Shown: positions 9,801 to 17,072, numbered from the stretch's first letter. The stretch: 64,000 bases of DNA from Candidatus Melainabacteria bacterium (GCA_003963305.1 RXJR01000004.1:60562-124561); one strand, 5' to 3'. The notes: a model not told the origin generated them from the letters alone. Made by a program: numbers and translations.

Positions 9801-9836
9801 ACTCAGCTCAGGACTCAGCTCAGGACTCAGCCCCGG
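9801..9836. repeat. Three tandem 12-base repeats between convergent genes
   Basis: ACTCAGCTCAGG occurs twice exactly (9801-9812, 9813-9824) and once with two changes (9825-9836). The array begins just after the stop of the TPR gene and ends inside the last codons of the convergent response regulator. Confidence 0.9.
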
Positions 9837-10225
9837 CGATGCTGCATATCCAGACTGGATTCAGCCGGCAACCATTTCTCGATCATCGTCTTTATATCCG
9901 CCATCATGGCAGGCTTCTGTAGAAAATCATCCATACCGACTGACATGACCCTTTGCTTGTCGGCATGTCCTGTCAGTGCAACGATTGGAATACGCTGCTT
10001 CCTTTCGCTCAGTTCTCGCTCTCTAATCAACATGGTGGCATGAACGCCATCGATACCAGGCAAACCAATATCCATAAAAATCAAGCCTATCTCAGGAGCA
10101 GTTTGATCCACGGCTTCTTCACCCGTTTTTACAACAATGCACTCGAAACCAAGCTTGGAGACTTGCCGCCGCGTTAAATCGCGGAGTATCGGATCATCTT
10201 CAACTATCAAAATCTGCTTTTTCAT
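9827..10225 (-). CDS. Stand-alone response regulator receiver
   Basis: 132 residues, a single CheY-like receiver with no output domain. The acidic pair is in LIVEDD, the phospho-acceptor Asp in FMDIGLPG, the switch Thr in VALTGHA and the conserved Lys in LQKPA. The ATG at 10225 overlaps the stop of the upstream kinase by one base (TGATG), so the kinase next door is the likely phosphodonor. Output could be protein-protein contact or a phosphorelay. Confidence 0.93.
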   Translation of the reverse strand: MKKQILIVEDDPILRDLTRRQVSKLGFECIVVKTGEEAVDQTAPEIGLIFMDIGLPGIDGVHATMLIRERELSERKQRIPIVALTGHADKQRVMSVGMDDFLQKPAMMADIKTMIEKWLPAESSLDMQHRRG

Positions 10226-11832
10226 CAAGACGAACGTCCAAGCGTGAAGGGCAGATCGAACCAGAAGTGCGAACCATGTCCAAATACACTATCAAACGCG
10301 ATAGTTCCGCCCATCATCTCAACAAGTTGCTTGGAAATACTCAAACCCAAACCAGATCCACCATAAACTCTCTTTGTCGACTCATCGGCTTGGGAGAATG
10401 GTTTGAATAATTTCTCTCGATCCTCCGGTTTGATCCCAATTCCGGAATCTTGTACAGAGAACCGAATCGTAATATGGTTGGCAGTCTTCTCAAGAATTCG
10501 TGCGTTGACGCGAACATCGCCACTATCAGTAAATTTAACAGCGTTGTGCACCAAATTGAGCAGAATCTGTCGAATCTTCAGTTCATCACCGTAGACCGTC
10601 TCCGGTATCAGCGGGTCACAACTTCCTTCCAACTCAACACCTTTGCTCGTTGCTTCACGATTGACTATTTGCCTGACGTCACCAAGAACGGTACGAATTG
10701 GAAACTCTCTATTTTCCAGACGCAGATCGCCCGTCTCCATACGTGCAGCTTCCAGCAAATTGTTCAATAAACGTAACAGCCGTTTAGAAGATTCAAAAAT
10801 GTTTTGAACTACCACATTGTTGTCGTCACCAAGATCTTCCAGTGCAAGCACCTCAGTCATTCCAATGATGCCCGCCATTGGGGTTCGCACCTCGTGACTG
10901 ATAGTCGACAAAAACCGGCTCTTCACTTCCAGAGCTTGTTTTAGCTCTTCGTTTGTTTGATCGAGCATTCTTGCGCTCGCTTCACGCTCCTGATCAGCCA
11001 GCAACCGTTGCGTCAAGTCTCTAGTTATTTTGGCAAATCCAATCAACTCGAAATTATCATATATTGCAGTGATGACTACATTCGCCCAAAGTAAAGTGCC
11101 GTCTTTTCTAATTCGCCAGCCTTCCTCTTCATAACGACCGGTGATTCGCGCCAAGCCCAATTCGCGGTCGGGATGCTTTCGTTTTTGAGCTTCACGAGAA
11201 TAAAAAAGAGAGAAATGTTTTCCTACAATTTCTTCGGAACGATATCCCATAATGCGCTCAGCGCCTTCATTCCAGGTCAAAACATTACCATCGGGTGAAA
11301 GCATAAAAATCGCATAGTCACGAACACCGCTGACCAGCATACGAAAAACTTCTTCCCGCTGCTCAGCTTTTCGACGTTCGGTCAGATCACGAGTAACTTT
11401 GGCAAATCCTAAAAGCTCGCCTTCATCGTAGACAGGAGTGATGGTTACGCTAGCCCAAAAAGTCGAACCATCTTTTCTGACTCGCCACCCCTCTTCCTCA
11501 TAGCTTCCATCCTCGATTGCCTTTCGAAGCTCATAATCAGGATGATTGGTCCGCCGCGCGTCCTCCAGGTAAAACTTGGAAAAATGCTGCCCAATAATTT
11601 CACTGGACTTATAACCCTTGATTCGCTCGGCACCCTCGTTCCAGGTCATTACCATGCCATTTGCATCAAGTAAAAAAATTGCATAGTCTTTAACGCTGCT
11701 CACAAGCAGCTTAAAGACTTGCTCCCGTTGAAAAAGTTCGAGCGAACGAGCGCTGGGGGACTTCGAACGAGATTCGTCGAGGTGATTCAAATTCGCAGGT
11801 TGTGCTGGCTGCTCGGTCACAAGTTGTCCCAA
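10225..11832 (-). CDS. Cytoplasmic hybrid-type PAS-PAS sensor histidine kinase
   Basis: 535 residues from a TTG start; no ATG lies in frame between the upstream stop and the first PAS domain. It has no membrane segment. Two PAS/PAC units (about 35-155 and 160-280) are near duplicates of each other (TWNEGAERIKGY and TWNEGAERIMGY). Then come a HisKA domain with His313 in SHEVRTPMAG and a HATPase with N box NLVHNAVKF, DSGIGI, and GGSGLGLSISK. It would sense a small ligand, redox or energy state in the cytoplasm and phosphorylate the receiver that follows it. GTG at residue 5 is an alternative start. Confidence 0.92.
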   Translation of the reverse strand: MGQLVTEQPAQPANLNHLDESRSKSPSARSLELFQREQVFKLLVSSVKDYAIFLLDANGMVMTWNEGAERIKGYKSSEIIGQHFSKFYLEDARRTNHPDYELRKAIEDGSYEEEGWRVRKDGSTFWASVTITPVYDEGELLGFAKVTRDLTERRKAEQREEVFRMLVSGVRDYAIFMLSPDGNVLTWNEGAERIMGYRSEEIVGKHFSLFYSREAQKRKHPDRELGLARITGRYEEEGWRIRKDGTLLWANVVITAIYDNFELIGFAKITRDLTQRLLADQEREASARMLDQTNEELKQALEVKSRFLSTISHEVRTPMAGIIGMTEVLALEDLGDDNNVVVQNIFESSKRLLRLLNNLLEAARMETGDLRLENREFPIRTVLGDVRQIVNREATSKGVELEGSCDPLIPETVYGDELKIRQILLNLVHNAVKFTDSGDVRVNARILEKTANHITIRFSVQDSGIGIKPEDREKLFKPFSQADESTKRVYGGSGLGLSISKQLVEMMGGTIAFDSVFGHGSHFWFDLPFTLGRSS

Positions 11833-12066: not shown

Positions 12067-13104
12067 TCAAACTCGCACAAGCAGCTTTCCCAAATTTCTT
12101 CCCTCAAACAAACTATTGAGCGCCTCAGGTAGTTTCTCAAAGCCGTCGATAACGGTTTCTTCAAACACTATCTCGTTGTTGCGCACCCAGGGGGCAACAA
12201 TTTTCGTCATCTCCTCCATGCGGTTCGTATAGTCACGAGCCAAAATCCCCTGAATGGTTGCCCGTTGAAAAAGCAAATGCTGCAGAAACCTGGGACCTTG
12301 CTCGGGTTGATCAAGACCACCATCATATTGGCTGATAGCACCACATATGATGATTCTTGCGCGCAGTTTTATATTGGGAATAATGGCGTCAGTAATGGTT
12401 CCACCAACATTATCGAAGTAAATGTCGACACCATTAGTCTGCCTGACTATTTCTTCCGATAAAGTTTCCCGGTTATCAAACTTCTTGTAATCGATGGCAC
12501 CATCAAGTTTCAATTTGTCAATCAGAAAGCTACATTTGGCTGAACCGCCCGCAATACCAATGACTCTGCAACCGGCACGTTTAGCGAACTGGGCAACGAG
12601 GGAGCCAACCGCCCCAGCTGCACCTGAGACCACAACAGTTTCTCCAGGTCTGGGTCGACCTGCTTCCATGAGTCCGAACCAGGCCGTTCGACCGGGCATG
12701 CCCAGAACACCGAGAGCCGTACTGACAGGAGCAGCCTCGGGGTCGAGCTTCTGAATTTCGCTCTCATGACACCTGGCGAATAGTTGCCAGCCATTGTAAC
12801 CGAGCACCCAATCTCCCTGGCTGAACTTTTGGCTGTTGCTGGCCACAATCTTACCGACAGTGCCCGCGCGCTGGACAATGCCCAGAGGATGGGGGACATC
12901 GTAAGTGTTCCGCTCATGCTGCTGAATTCGCATGTACGGATCAACGCTTATGTATTTGGCCTGAACAATGACCTCGTTTGCCGCAAGTTCTGGCGATAAA
13001 TCACTTTCACGCAATTGAAAGTGTTCCTCGGTAACACGATTGGCAGGTCGTTTCACATAAAACCACTGTCGATTAGGAAAGGGCTTAAGAAACTGGTTCT
13101 GCAT
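12067..13104 (-). CDS. NADP-dependent oxidoreductase, MDR superfamily (2-alkenal/leukotriene-B4 reductase type)
   Basis: 345 residues. Start ATG 13104 has GAGGAA seven bases upstream; ATG 13128 is an alternative. The zinc-free medium-chain reductase fold is clear: an N-terminal catalytic domain (YISVDPYMR, the typical motif), VSGAAGAVGSLVAQFAK for the nucleotide-binding loop, and DNVGGTI in the cofactor domain. Relatives reduce the C=C bond of enals and enones with NADPH, e.g. curcumin reductase and zinc-binding dehydrogenase-like YncB, and serve in detoxifying lipid aldehydes. The exact substrate cannot be told. It stands alone, divergent from kaiB. Confidence 0.9.
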   Translation of the reverse strand: MQNQFLKPFPNRQWFYVKRPANRVTEEHFQLRESDLSPELAANEVIVQAKYISVDPYMRIQQHERNTYDVPHPLGIVQRAGTVGKIVASNSQKFSQGDWVLGYNGWQLFARCHESEIQKLDPEAAPVSTALGVLGMPGRTAWFGLMEAGRPRPGETVVVSGAAGAVGSLVAQFAKRAGCRVIGIAGGSAKCSFLIDKLKLDGAIDYKKFDNRETLSEEIVRQTNGVDIYFDNVGGTITDAIIPNIKLRARIIICGAISQYDGGLDQPEQGPRFLQHLLFQRATIQGILARDYTNRMEEMTKIVAPWVRNNEIVFEETVIDGFEKLPEALNSLFEGRNLGKLLVRV

Positions 13105-13574
13105 CGATTCTTCCTCTTTTTTCGACATCAAGTGAAACTCGCACTTAAACGTGTCTGATGACTTGAAACGGTTCGGACAGTAAGAATATCGCCTTCAACT
13201 GTTCAGTACAACAATAACCATCCTCAAATCACCCGTAACCAGTAAAAAGTCACGAATGTGTCTGCTAGATACGCCTTACAAAGCATGGCAAGATTCATCA
13301 TGCCTCGTACTAAGAAGATTTCTACCATCAAATTTCTAGAATTTGGAAACATTTTTGTGAACGCGCTCGACAGTGTTCCTGCTTATGTTTATGGCGATCA
13401 AACAACCAAACGGCTGTATCGCAGCACTCAAATCAAAGGTTCTCCGTGACAATCGGTGATTCACTGTAGTGACTTAAGAATGACATCTACTTTATCAATT
13501 ATTCAAATGCTGAATCTAGCAAGATATCGGCAATTGGACCTGGTCAAATATCGTCCGAGCCTGGTAAAAGCAAT
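13105..13574. other. Divergent intergenic region upstream of kaiB
   Basis: 470 bases lie between the oxidoreductase and kaiB. One ORF of 63 codons (13258-13449) shows no coding signature or ribosome site. The kaiB-proximal third holds the palindrome-like TCACTGTAGTGA (13461-13472) and an ATGACA-17-TCAAAT promoter candidate. Confidence 0.4.
13480..13508 (+). promoter_or_regulatory. Candidate promoter of the kai operon
   Basis: ATGACA (13480-13485) and TCAAAT (13503-13508) are 17 bases apart, five and four of six matches to sigma70 boxes. An imperfect palindrome ends eight bases upstream of the -35 box and could be an operator. The inferred leader before kaiB would be about 60 bases. Confidence 0.35.
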
Positions 13575-13862
13575 ATGAGTCAGCATCACTTCAAGCTGTA
13601 TGTAATGGGTTGTTCAGCAAGATCCAGTCAGGTGATAGACAACCTGCGGCGATTCTGCGAAGAATTCATGCCCTCCGAATATCAGCTCACGATAATCGAC
13701 GTTCTAGAAGACCCAAAAGCCGCTGAGCTAGACAAAATACTCGCCACCCCCACCCTAATAAAACACCAGCCTCCACCCGTTAAAAGATTAGTAGGCGACT
13801 TGACAGACCAAGAGCAGGTATCACGCATGTTAGACATAGCGAAATCAAGAGTGAAACAGTAA
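13575..13862 (+). CDS. kaiB: Circadian clock protein KaiB
   Basis: 95 residues, the usual KaiB size minus the acidic tail of the Synechococcus protein. FKLYVMGCSARSSQ matches the first strand and helix of KaiB, and IIDVLEDPKAAELDKILATP followed by TLIKHQPPPVKRLVGDLTD is almost the family consensus. The cis-proline region and the ILATPTL segment involved in KaiC binding and fold switching are present. In cyanobacteria KaiB binds the KaiC CI ring and sequesters KaiA. It overlaps kaiC by one base (TAATG), so both are translated together. Confidence 0.96.
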   Translation: MSQHHFKLYVMGCSARSSQVIDNLRRFCEEFMPSEYQLTIIDVLEDPKAAELDKILATPTLIKHQPPPVKRLVGDLTDQEQVSRMLDIAKSRVKQ

Positions 13863-15382
13863 TGACAGTTTTTACAACAGCTTTTGAGAAATTAGAAACA
13901 GGAATCGAAGGTCTCGACCAGATTTCATACGGTGGACTGCCCAAGGGAAGGGCCACTCTAGTTGCTGGAACCGCGGGCAGTGCCAAAACAGTGCTTGCAA
14001 TCCAGTTTCTCGCCATGGGTATCACTAAATTTCAACAACCCGCAGTCTTCGTAACTTTCGAAGAATCACCTGCAGATCTTCGACGCAACGTATCGGGATT
14101 CCGATGGGACATTTCTGAATGGGAAAAGCACAATCTCTGGTCGTTTGTCGACGCATCGCCTGTGAAGGACCAGCATGCTCATATCTCTGGCGAGTTCGAC
14201 TTCGGCGGTCTGCTGGCTAGAATCAAACATGCAGTCAAAGAAACAAGTGCCAAAAGACTCGTGCTGGATTCTATCGGAGCGGTATTCTCGCAATTCGACT
14301 CAGCAGCCATCGTGCGGCGTGAGCTATATTCACTTGCTGAAACCCTGAAAGATATGGGAGTCACTTCGGTTGTAACTACCGAGCGCGCGAATGATTTCGG
14401 TGAAATATCAAGATTCGGAGTCGAAGAGTTTGTCGCGGACAACGTCATCCTCCTGCGCAATATTCTGGAAGAGGAAAAGCGTCGCCGCACCATCGAGATA
14501 TTGAAATTTAGAGGCACCAATCACCAGAAAGGTGAGGTGCCATTTACCGTAATCGACGAACACGGCGTGGCATTGCTGCCGCTCTCTTCGATGGAGCTGA
14601 CACAAAAATCGTCAACTAAACGAATCAGCTCAGGCATCGAAACTCTAGACTCAATGTGCGGAGGAGGCTTCTTTCAGGACTCGATTATTCTAATTTCGGG
14701 AGCTACAGGCACTGGCAAGTCACTCACCACGAGCCACTTCGTGAACAGCGATCGCGACGGAGACAGAAGTCTCTTGTTCGGCTTCGAAGAAAGCCGCGAT
14801 CAGTTGATAAGAAATGCAGCCGGATGGGGAATGGATTTCGCAGAACGTGAGCGACAGGGTAAGTTAAAGATCGTATGCCAATATCCAGAGATCGCTGCAC
14901 TTGAAGACCATTTAATCCAGATCCAGGAGGAAATCGAGCACTTCAAACCCACTCGCGTAGCCATCGATAGCCTCTCAGCACTGGAAAGGATCTCTGTAGT
15001 TAAAAATTTCCGCGAATTTGTTCTTAGCTTGACAGAAATACTTAAACGCCGTGAAATAGCCGGTTTCTTTACCTCGACCACCCCGTCACTTCTGGGCGGA
15101 CAATCAGTAACGGAAGCACACATCAGCACCATTACGGATTCGATCATCCTGCTTCGCTATGTTGAGATGTTCGGAGAAATGAAGCGCGGAATCACGGTTC
15201 TAAAAATGCGCGGTTCACGACACGACAAGAACATTCGGGAATTCATCATCGACAACGAAGGAATGGATATCGGAAAACCATTTGCAAACGTAACAGGCAT
15301 CCTGTCGGGCTCACCGGTCCACCTCAACAAACACGAACTGAAGAGAATTGAAACAATGTTTGACGCACAACAGTCAACATAA
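13862..15382 (+). CDS. kaiC: Circadian clock ATPase/autokinase KaiC
   Basis: 506 residues with two RecA-like domains. CI has Walker A GTAGSAKT (36-43; Ala replaces the usual Gly before Lys), catalytic E67/E68 in TFEES and Walker B Asp136 in LVLDSI. CII has Walker A GATGTGKS (280-287) and E309/E310 in FGFEES. The CII phosphorylation sites are all kept: T417, S422 and T423 in TEAHISTITD, matching T426, S431 and T432 of Synechococcus KaiC. The segment ILSGSPVHL, at the A-loop, is recognisable, but the tail after it is short and unlike the KaiA-binding tail. No kaiA is in the window. Expected to form a hexamer with slow ATPase and autokinase activity. Confidence 0.96.
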   Translation: MTVFTTAFEKLETGIEGLDQISYGGLPKGRATLVAGTAGSAKTVLAIQFLAMGITKFQQPAVFVTFEESPADLRRNVSGFRWDISEWEKHNLWSFVDASPVKDQHAHISGEFDFGGLLARIKHAVKETSAKRLVLDSIGAVFSQFDSAAIVRRELYSLAETLKDMGVTSVVTTERANDFGEISRFGVEEFVADNVILLRNILEEEKRRRTIEILKFRGTNHQKGEVPFTVIDEHGVALLPLSSMELTQKSSTKRISSGIETLDSMCGGGFFQDSIILISGATGTGKSLTTSHFVNSDRDGDRSLLFGFEESRDQLIRNAAGWGMDFAERERQGKLKIVCQYPEIAALEDHLIQIQEEIEHFKPTRVAIDSLSALERISVVKNFREFVLSLTEILKRREIAGFFTSTTPSLLGGQSVTEAHISTITDSIILLRYVEMFGEMKRGITVLKMRGSRHDKNIREFIIDNEGMDIGKPFANVTGILSGSPVHLNKHELKRIETMFDAQQST

Positions 15383-15425
15383 ACGCTTCGAAAAGGCAAA
15401 TAGCGATAGTGGTGAACGGAAGTCT

Positions 15426-17072
15426 ATGACTAACACAAAATTGGCAATACTAGTCATAGACGGATGCGCTGATTATGCTGACGAGGTTCAACAGAATCTG
15501 GAACGGCAAACGAAGCGAAGTGTAGAAGTTGTCTTCGAACCCGACCTGCGCGAAGCTGTGAAGAAAATGGCTGACCGTCATTTCAATGTCGTTCTGGCTA
15601 AGCGAGAGATACTCGATAATAAAGAATTTCCCACTGCGAACTTGATGAGACAACAGCAGTCTCATTCAATCGTTGGCATGCTGGAAAGTAGAGATGGAAA
15701 ATTTGACGCTGGCCTAACTGAACGGCAATTAAATTGGAATAAAAATCGGTTTCTTGATCGCGGAAAAGACGAAGTCCACGGCGGAACCCAGGATAAGAAA
15801 ACGGACGAAGTCCACGACGGAATCCGAGCTGGGGAAAAGGATGGAGACGGAGATGCCATCCTGCTCGAGCCGATCAACAAATTGTCCGACTTTCTGGTAA
15901 GAATGCCCGTCCAGCCTGATGTGCTAACTCAACTGATACTGAGTAACATTGAGAAGTTCGAGTTGAAGGCTTCCCTGCAAAGCACTGAGAAGGACCTGCG
16001 AAAAATCATCGAGAAAAATGCAGACAGCATCCTCGTCGTCGATGCTAATGGCGCACTGCTGTATTGGAATGCAGCAGCCCAGAGACTGTTCCGAAGCTCA
16101 GGTCTGGTTACTGGAGAAGTTTTTGGCATTCCGCTTATCGCGGGCGAAACAACCGAACTTGACGTGGTCGACAAATCAGGTGAAAGAATAGTCGCTGAAA
16201 TGCGCGTTGTCGATATTGAATGGAGCGGTCAAGCTGCTTGTCTCGCCAGCCTTCGTGATGTCACACAAAGAAAGCTAACGGAAGAATTGCTGGAAGCAAA
16301 AGTAAAAGATCGCACCAAACAACTTGAAGAACTTAACCAGGAACTGCGCAAGATGTACGAGTCTGCAGAAAACGCTGCCAGAGTTCGCTCGCAATTCATA
16401 GCAAACTTCAGCCATGAAGTCAGAACGCCACTGGGCGGCATTGTAGCGGCGTCGGAAATGCTTCCTATGGCTGACGACCTTGAAGAATTTCGAGAACTGG
16501 CTAGCTCGGTAGCAGATTCGAGTAAACAGCTTCTCAGCCTGGTGGAATCAATTCTCGACTTTTCAAAACTAGAGTCTGGCGCAGTACCAGTTGCCGACTC
16601 AGACTTCAGCCTGCGTGAACTCTTTGACTCGGTTGTTCAAAGTTTAACGAAATTGGCCGCGGAGAACTCGACCTCCGTTACCTATATCCTCGCCGATACG
16701 ATACCGGATATAGTGCAAGCTGATGCCGTAAAAATAAGGCAGGTCATTTTGAATCTAACCCACAACGCAATCAAGTTCACAAAAAATGGATACGTAGAGA
16801 TTCGAGCGGAATTGCAAGACAGCTACGAGCAGCCAACATTGAGAGTAACAATCAAAGATTCAGGAATTGGCATGACGGCAAGAGAATGCGAAACAATCTT
16901 CCAACCATTTGTTCAAGGCAATCGTAAAATACATGGCCGCTTCGGAGGCACCGGTCTGGGTTTATCCATTTGCAAACAGCTTGTCGAAGCGATGCACGGT
17001 ACAATCAATTTTTATAGCGAACCGGAGAAAGGCTCAACGTTCTGGTTCGCCATTCCAATCAAACTGAAATAG
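15426..17072 (+). CDS. Sensor histidine kinase with N-terminal pseudo-receiver and PAS domain, in the kai operon
   Basis: 548 residues. ATG 15426 is preferred; a TTG start at 15348 would overlap kaiC. Residues 5-90 look like a receiver (LAILVIDGCADYADEVQQ... HFNVVLAKREILDN), but the phospho-acceptor Asp position is Lys/Arg, so it is a pseudo-receiver. An acidic linker contains a 36-base duplication (15768-15839, DEVHGG and DEVHDG). A PAS domain (190-285), a coiled coil, HisKA with His330 (SHEVRTPLGG) and a HATPase (NLTHNAIKF, DSGIGM, GGTGLGLSICK) follow. No membrane segment. It sits 43 bases after kaiC where SasA or CikA would be the functional equivalent, but it lacks SasA's KaiB-like sensor domain. 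Its partner regulator is not adjacent. Confidence 0.92.
   Translation: MTNTKLAILVIDGCADYADEVQQNLERQTKRSVEVVFEPDLREAVKKMADRHFNVVLAKREILDNKEFPTANLMRQQQSHSIVGMLESRDGKFDAGLTERQLNWNKNRFLDRGKDEVHGGTQDKKTDEVHDGIRAGEKDGDGDAILLEPINKLSDFLVRMPVQPDVLTQLILSNIEKFELKASLQSTEKDLRKIIEKNADSILVVDANGALLYWNAAAQRLFRSSGLVTGEVFGIPLIAGETTELDVVDKSGERIVAEMRVVDIEWSGQAACLASLRDVTQRKLTEELLEAKVKDRTKQLEELNQELRKMYESAENAARVRSQFIANFSHEVRTPLGGIVAASEMLPMADDLEEFRELASSVADSSKQLLSLVESILDFSKLESGAVPVADSDFSLRELFDSVVQSLTKLAAENSTSVTYILADTIPDIVQADAVKIRQVILNLTHNAIKFTKNGYVEIRAELQDSYEQPTLRVTIKDSGIGMTARECETIFQPFVQGNRKIHGRFGGTGLGLSICKQLVEAMHGTINFYSEPEKGSTFWFAIPIKLK

Follow-up and report, generated by a model that had tools for sequence, protein, structure and literature searches.

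The KaiA3-KaiB3-KaiC3 gene arrangement, as found in Synechocystis, has been published, with KaiA3 also reported from five non-cyanobacterial genera (PMC11372060), and the output pathway and signalling partner of KaiC3 have been described as unknown (PMC6989803). In Melainabacteria, rpaA, rpaB and nblS were reported earlier (PMC4040986), and no report of kai genes in this group was found within the open-access literature searched. A stretch of 64,000 nucleotides from Candidatus Melainabacteria bacterium (GCA_003963305.1 RXJR01000004.1:60562-124561), analysed whole and referred to here as the window, carries a kaiB-kaiC-histidine kinase unit. On balance the three genes probably make up a timing unit of the KaiB3-KaiC3 type, equipped with a kinase of its own, in a cyanobacterial relative that lacks photosynthesis, the light-sensor gene and very probably kaiA having been lost from the locus. 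The unit resembles a stripped-down clock more than one predating photosynthesis, and the system was most likely reduced from a KaiA3-KaiB3-KaiC3 system with light input.

The three genes lie on the + strand. The product of kaiB (13575..13862, 95 amino acids (aa)) contains the whole KaiB domain, of the fold-switching thioredoxin-like kind (PF07689, 1-82 of 82, 87.8 bits), and is near-canonical, as an earlier, sequence-only reading of this DNA had held; it scores 75 bits against the NCBIfam cyanobacterial KaiB model, below the cut-off of 145, and so is not a KaiB1 equivalog. The last base of its TAA stop codon (13862) is the first base of the kaiC ATG, an overlap of 1 base, and kaiC (13862..15382, 506 aa) is followed after a gap of 43 bases by the ATG of the sensor histidine kinase (15426..17072, 548 aa); the overlap, the two-domain KaiC and the position of the kinase were likewise described correctly. 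KaiC has two KaiC ATPase (RecA-like) domains (PF06745, 375 bits), exceeds the cut-off of the NCBIfam circ_KaiC model (TIGR02655; 633 vs 546 bits), and retains both P-loops, both catalytic glutamate pairs and the phosphosite segment T-E-A-H-I-S-T (T/S/T). Chance is ruled out by the domain scores.

Judged by identity and tree, the window KaiC is of the KaiC3 type. Compared with the two KaiC copies of twelve cyanobacterial genomes, it is 61-63% identical to the closer and 53-56% to the other, and the closer copy is mostly positioned behind kaiB and a receiver-KaiA protein; this closer identity to the copy in the KaiA3-KaiB3-KaiC3 arrangement assigns the window system to the KaiC3 type. The marks of the KaiC3 subgroup are also present, with GTAGSAKT as the CI P-loop and a Walker B motif ending in ALER. 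The distribution in the family is patchy, with this KaiC in five of 36 genomes, each time with a PAS-histidine kinase gene directly behind kaiC, so that the proposed link to the kinase extends to related genomes. Four of the five family KaiCs group together with good support; that of G024 has a long branch, and the data permit it to join them.

The closest named genome is the metagenome-assembled genome (MAG) Cyanobacteria bacterium SZAS-4, and this nearest relative places the window genome, by sequence, in the Vampirovibrionia (Melainabacteria)/Obscuribacterales, the non-photosynthetic sister group of photosynthetic cyanobacteria. In SZAS-4 (L032) the gene order is oxidoreductase, KaiA3-like, bacteriophytochrome kinase (PAS_2-GAF-PHY-HisKA-HATPase), kaiB, kaiC and kinase. 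The segment L032:4512-11044, where the KaiA3-like and bacteriophytochrome kinase genes are divergent from kaiB-kaiC-kinase, is a candidate light-linked clock cluster in its own right. The oxidoreductase gene of the window (12067..13131, - strand), a syntenic flank marker, is 84% identical in SZAS-4, and 443 bases separate it from kaiB. Between them lies a decayed remnant of a bacteriophytochrome 5' end, 150 bases long (13297..13446, - strand), which matches residues 13-62 of the SZAS-4 phytochrome (27/50 in blastx, E 3e-13) and has a stop codon in frame; by blastn the match is 80% over 118 bases and reaches 102 bits, where 100 shuffles gave no more than 31. The locus thus once held a phytochrome, most of which is gone. 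The position of kaiA3 in SZAS-4 falls on the side deleted here, so that this gene would likely have gone in the same event. From this comparison, the kaiA-less state of the window locus is most likely a deletion.

The KaiA3-like protein of SZAS-4 has an intact receiver domain, and its C-domain reaches 88 bits with a profile made from sequences of other groups. The twelve best Foldseek matches of its AlphaFold model (mean pLDDT 86) are all KaiA, with KaiA on top at Z values up to 12.2 and RsbR-type domains next at 9-10; for helical bundles a Z below 13 is not proof alone, and here the profile score and the position of the gene point the same way. In G028, also of this family, a KaiA3-like gene lies next to kaiB, encoded on the other strand (54 bits, same profile). 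Across the sample, a KaiA3-type C-domain is found near kaiB in 64 of 82 KaiC3-type loci from about 15 phyla, and kaiA was therefore probably in the ancestral set of KaiC3. The Pfam KaiA family (PF07688) was dropped as a test for kaiA, as KaiA3 proteins score 15.5-16.5 bits with it or nothing. The absence of kaiA from the 64 kb, stated in the sequence-only reading, holds with both PF07688 and the KaiA3-domain profile made here, with no KaiA-like open reading frame, and no KaiA3 domain was detected in the 2.0 Mb (27%) of the window genome scanned with that profile. Two further observations concern kaiA genes elsewhere: a Helarchaeota MAG, as binned (L090), has a kaiA3-kaiB-kaiC-kaiB cluster with a receiver-PAS kinase, and G036 (L128), of the same order, shows a weak Pfam KaiA match (24.9 bits) with two internal stops, possibly a pseudogene or chance.

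Kinases adjoining kaiC in many phyla have one PAS subtype in common, with the motifs FGxP, GExTEID, AEMR, W and LASLRDIT; in the window kinase it occupies residues 188-283 (15987..16274, + strand; profile match 128 bits). In Pfam and NCBIfam only generic PAS models cover it, and by profile search the subtype is undescribed and tracks KaiC3. A profile was built from 23 kai-linked domains, and in 60 Vampirovibrionia genomes it gave five matches of at least 97 bits, exactly the KaiC3 genomes and all beside kaiC (the profile had been built without two of these five); the next best match in any of these genomes was 45.5 bits. Fisher's test for PAS and KaiC3, uncorrected for kinship, gave 2e-7 per genome and 9e-6 per genus; several linkage counts that arose from coinciding coordinates on different contigs were left out of account. 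In other groups, 38 of 42 KaiC3-bearing genomes have a match (E 1e-10 or better), mostly adjoining kaiC, and copies linked to kai genes are spread over about 14 phyla. Among 72,556 plasmids the subtype is present on two, each with kaiC no more than 2 kb away, and a weak copy lies beside kaiB on a third plasmid with kaiC, while ordinary PAS at the same threshold is found on 800 plasmids. There was no match to the subtype in phages, no PDB chain above 37 bits, and no match in a KaiC search of viral contigs. A single copy is present in four of five photosynthetic cyanobacteria; the copies read in three of them (L257, L259, L263) are remote from kaiC, in multi-PAS or receiver proteins running on into GGDEF-EAL sequence, which suggests a cyclic-di-GMP link of KaiC3. 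At three loci (L071, L099, L103) the PAS domain is fused to a KaiA3 C-domain in one protein upstream of kaiB, tying it to KaiA function. A separate system is seen in the family member G016 (L143), which has a different KaiC (36% identical), two adjacent kaiB genes and a kinase without the PAS subtype.

The window kinase begins with a degenerate receiver domain (15426..15917, + strand), recognised by alignment with intact receivers and in the AlphaFold model, in which Lys59 replaces the phosphoacceptor Asp; alignment with the intact receivers of other kai-linked kinases shows the same in SZAS-4. The model contains the first half of the receiver fold and a well predicted PAS domain, with residues 91-160 of low confidence and low complexity, and a Foldseek search with the receiver-PAS model returned PAS proteins alone among the matches listed. 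A low-complexity, partly repeated insert, KDEVHGGTQDKKTDEVHDG, lies in the receiver at 15696-15880 and is lacking in SZAS-4. After the PAS domain, HisKA and HATPase_c (16386..17060, + strand) have intact H, N and G boxes, with the phospho-acceptor His330 in the box NFSHEVRTPLGG. The kinase is not SasA, having a receiver and PAS at its N-terminus and no fused KaiB-like domain, nor is it CikA (GAF-HisKA-HATPase with a C-terminal pseudo-receiver), as its degenerate receiver is N-terminal and PAS stands in place of GAF. The pseudo-receiver of CikA binds KaiB, and that the degenerate receiver of the window kinase might do so in the same way is, by analogy, only an idea. Near the kai operon, a histidine kinase gene with two PAS domains of the ordinary type, followed by a lone receiver gene, is found (9827-11832, - strand); the SZAS-4 locus lacks both.

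Genes for photosystem I and II reaction centres were not found anywhere in the 7.48 Mb genome, while a control genome gave positive matches, which bears out for the reaction centres the earlier statement that photosynthesis genes are lacking. The genome encodes one KaiB-domain protein, the kaiB product, and so SasA of the usual kind is absent. An orthologue of RpaA is present (an OmpR-type regulator at G000:C6:246074-246739), 63% identical to a reference RpaA sequence that is itself 95% identical to a retrieved cyanobacterial protein; the next regulators of the genome reach at most 44%. An RpaB orthologue is also present and passes the curated cut-off.

The sequence-only reading took the unit for a self-contained KaiBC-kinase timer that could show what the clock did before photosynthesis. 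The unit itself, the lack of photosystem genes and the kinase behind kaiC in all five family members stand; the kaiA-less origin and, with it, the clock before photosynthesis find no support, given kaiA3 and a bacteriophytochrome at the same site in SZAS-4, the kaiA3-like gene of G028 and the phytochrome remnant in the window. Because the organism counts among the cyanobacteria, broadly defined, a claim of a pre-photosynthetic clock would also call for a KaiC tree that is rooted and resolved. A KaiBC-kinase hourglass that never had kaiA, as a relic of timekeeping before photosynthesis, is accordingly hard to credit: 64 kb without kaiA, the existence of KaiBC-only hourglass systems (PMC10076222) and a tree that leaves the deep placement of KaiC open would allow it, but the remnant, the sister locus and the frequency of kaiA3-type genes near kaiB speak against it. 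Hardly more probable is a decaying cassette, its remaining genes without a timing role and on their way out after the loss of kaiA and light input. The remnant, the insert in the kinase receiver and the many family members without the system would fit this, yet none of the three reading frames is broken, the catalytic motifs are preserved, and between the window and SZAS-4 KaiC is as conserved as the flanking oxidoreductase (nonsynonymous divergence, dN, 0.12 and 0.13); synonymous sites are saturated, so that omega is not computable.

It is rather unlikely, though less so, that the clock was rearranged and is complete, with kaiA3 and perhaps a light sensor elsewhere in the genome and a KaiABC oscillator still running. 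Pfam KaiA is nearly blind to KaiA3, the KaiA3-profile scan spans 27% of the genome, and contig C1 of the window genome bears a second phytochrome, a photosensory core of ~530 aa with a likely bilin Cys (L316:1971-3563, - strand). This core is, however, 31% identical to the SZAS-4 phytochrome and has no kinase, only a wreck of the phytochrome is left at the locus, kaiA3 adjoins kaiB in most loci, and the 2.0 Mb scanned gave no KaiA3 domain. Acquisition of the kaiBC-kinase cassette from another phylum, which is compatible with the favoured reading, is a stronger but still doubtful possibility; a cassette so gained would tell little of cyanobacterial clock ancestry. The system is in few family genomes, similar cassettes occur in about 14 phyla, and the nearest KaiCs outside the family include Chloroflexota, but the window and SZAS-4 share the same flanking genes and the G+C of the kai locus is near that of its surroundings (0.476 vs 0.494). 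The tree proposed earlier as a check supports the KaiC3 type and a clade of four family KaiCs and not a particular deep placement: the careful KaiC tree has a deep backbone without resolution, quick trees missed better constrained ones, and approximately unbiased (AU) tests reject neither a grouping with cyanobacterial KaiC3 (p 0.73) nor one with Roseiflexus. With deep KaiC relations unsettled by trees, neither vertical descent from an ancestor shared with photosynthetic cyanobacteria nor transfer is demonstrated.

If the window genes form a reduced KaiB3-KaiC3 timing unit, the KaiC hexamer is predicted to hydrolyse ATP in CI and to autophosphorylate at Ser/Thr in CII, and KaiB to bind the phosphorylated KaiC ring. 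The kinase would sense the state of KaiB/KaiC by way of its special PAS domain and/or degenerate receiver, and would hand phosphate to a response regulator, for which the RpaA orthologue is one candidate. Without kaiA, an hourglass or energy-state (ATP:ADP) timer would be expected, not a free-running clock. Several points weigh against the reduced timing unit and the role given to its kinase. The biochemistry, timing, rhythm and outputs of the window system are all deduced from sequence and the contact of the kinase with KaiB/KaiC is putative; that kaiA went in the deletion that took the phytochrome, and that it is absent from the other 73% of the genome, is likewise deduced, and kaiA3 could lie elsewhere, as the profile scan covered 27%. 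The Roseiflexus matches to the PAS profile are weak (65-70 bits), four of the 42 KaiC3 genomes of other groups lack the domain, and some KaiC3 genomes carry further copies unlinked to kai. The specificity control consisted of Vampirovibrionia, plasmids, phages and the PDB, with KaiC3-free genomes of other phyla outside it. With these points counted, it is put forward tentatively, at somewhat less than an even chance, that the PAS subtype serves KaiC3 clocks as their dedicated domain for read-out (or input). It would contact KaiB3/KaiC3, travel with both through about 14 phyla (an archaeal MAG among them), be fused at times to the KaiA3 domain, and feed kinases, with GGDEF-EAL proteins in their place in photosynthetic cyanobacteria. 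On that view, cyanobacteria without photosynthesis, such as SZAS-4, would have a phytochrome-KaiA3-KaiB-KaiC-kinase clock, and the window would hold the version minus light input and kaiA.

Among known systems, KaiA3-KaiB3-KaiC3 of Synechocystis (PMC11372060, PMC6989803) shares with the window a KaiC3-type KaiC and adjacent kaiB, and with SZAS-4 the receiver-KaiA (KaiA3-like) protein, but the window locus is without kaiA3. Cyanobacterial KaiC3 loci have no PAS-histidine kinase after kaiC, where the window has one, and the cyanobacterial PAS copy, where read, is in a separate GGDEF-EAL protein. The KaiABC-SasA/CikA/RpaA system of Synechococcus elongatus is similar in its KaiB, its double-domain KaiC with identical phosphosites, and the RpaA and RpaB orthologues in the genome; it differs in having KaiC1 and in KaiA and SasA, lacking from the window locus and the genome, respectively. 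The KaiBC hourglass of Rhodobacter (Cereibacter) sphaeroides (PMC10076222) also brings together kaiB, kaiC and a histidine kinase with no KaiA, but in the order kaiC-kaiB-kinase and with an HWE-type kinase, and its KaiC is 38% identical to that of the window, longer (~570 vs 506 aa) and provided with a C-terminal coiled-coil extension that the window KaiC lacks; on these grounds the window system was rejected as one of this type. The kaiC-kinase operon of the non-photosynthetic Ramlibacter tataouinensis (PMC3164672), a proposed hourglass, has its kinase gene directly 3' of kaiC as in the window, but no kaiB or kaiA, and another conserved kinase N-terminus was described. Since the literature calls the KaiC3 output pathway unknown (PMC6989803), the PAS subtype becomes a testable and concrete candidate for the signalling partner. 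The KaiA3 domain is far wider in the sample than the five genera of PMC11372060, which bears on the view of kaiA-less KaiBC systems as primitive. Closest of all is the SZAS-4 kai locus, which agrees in flanks and in the order kaiB-kaiC-kinase (KaiC is 84% and the kinase 68% identical) and differs by the KaiA3-like and bacteriophytochrome kinase genes between oxidoreductase and kaiB; the two are a natural pair, one operon with and without kaiA3 and phytochrome, in which the contribution of those parts is testable.

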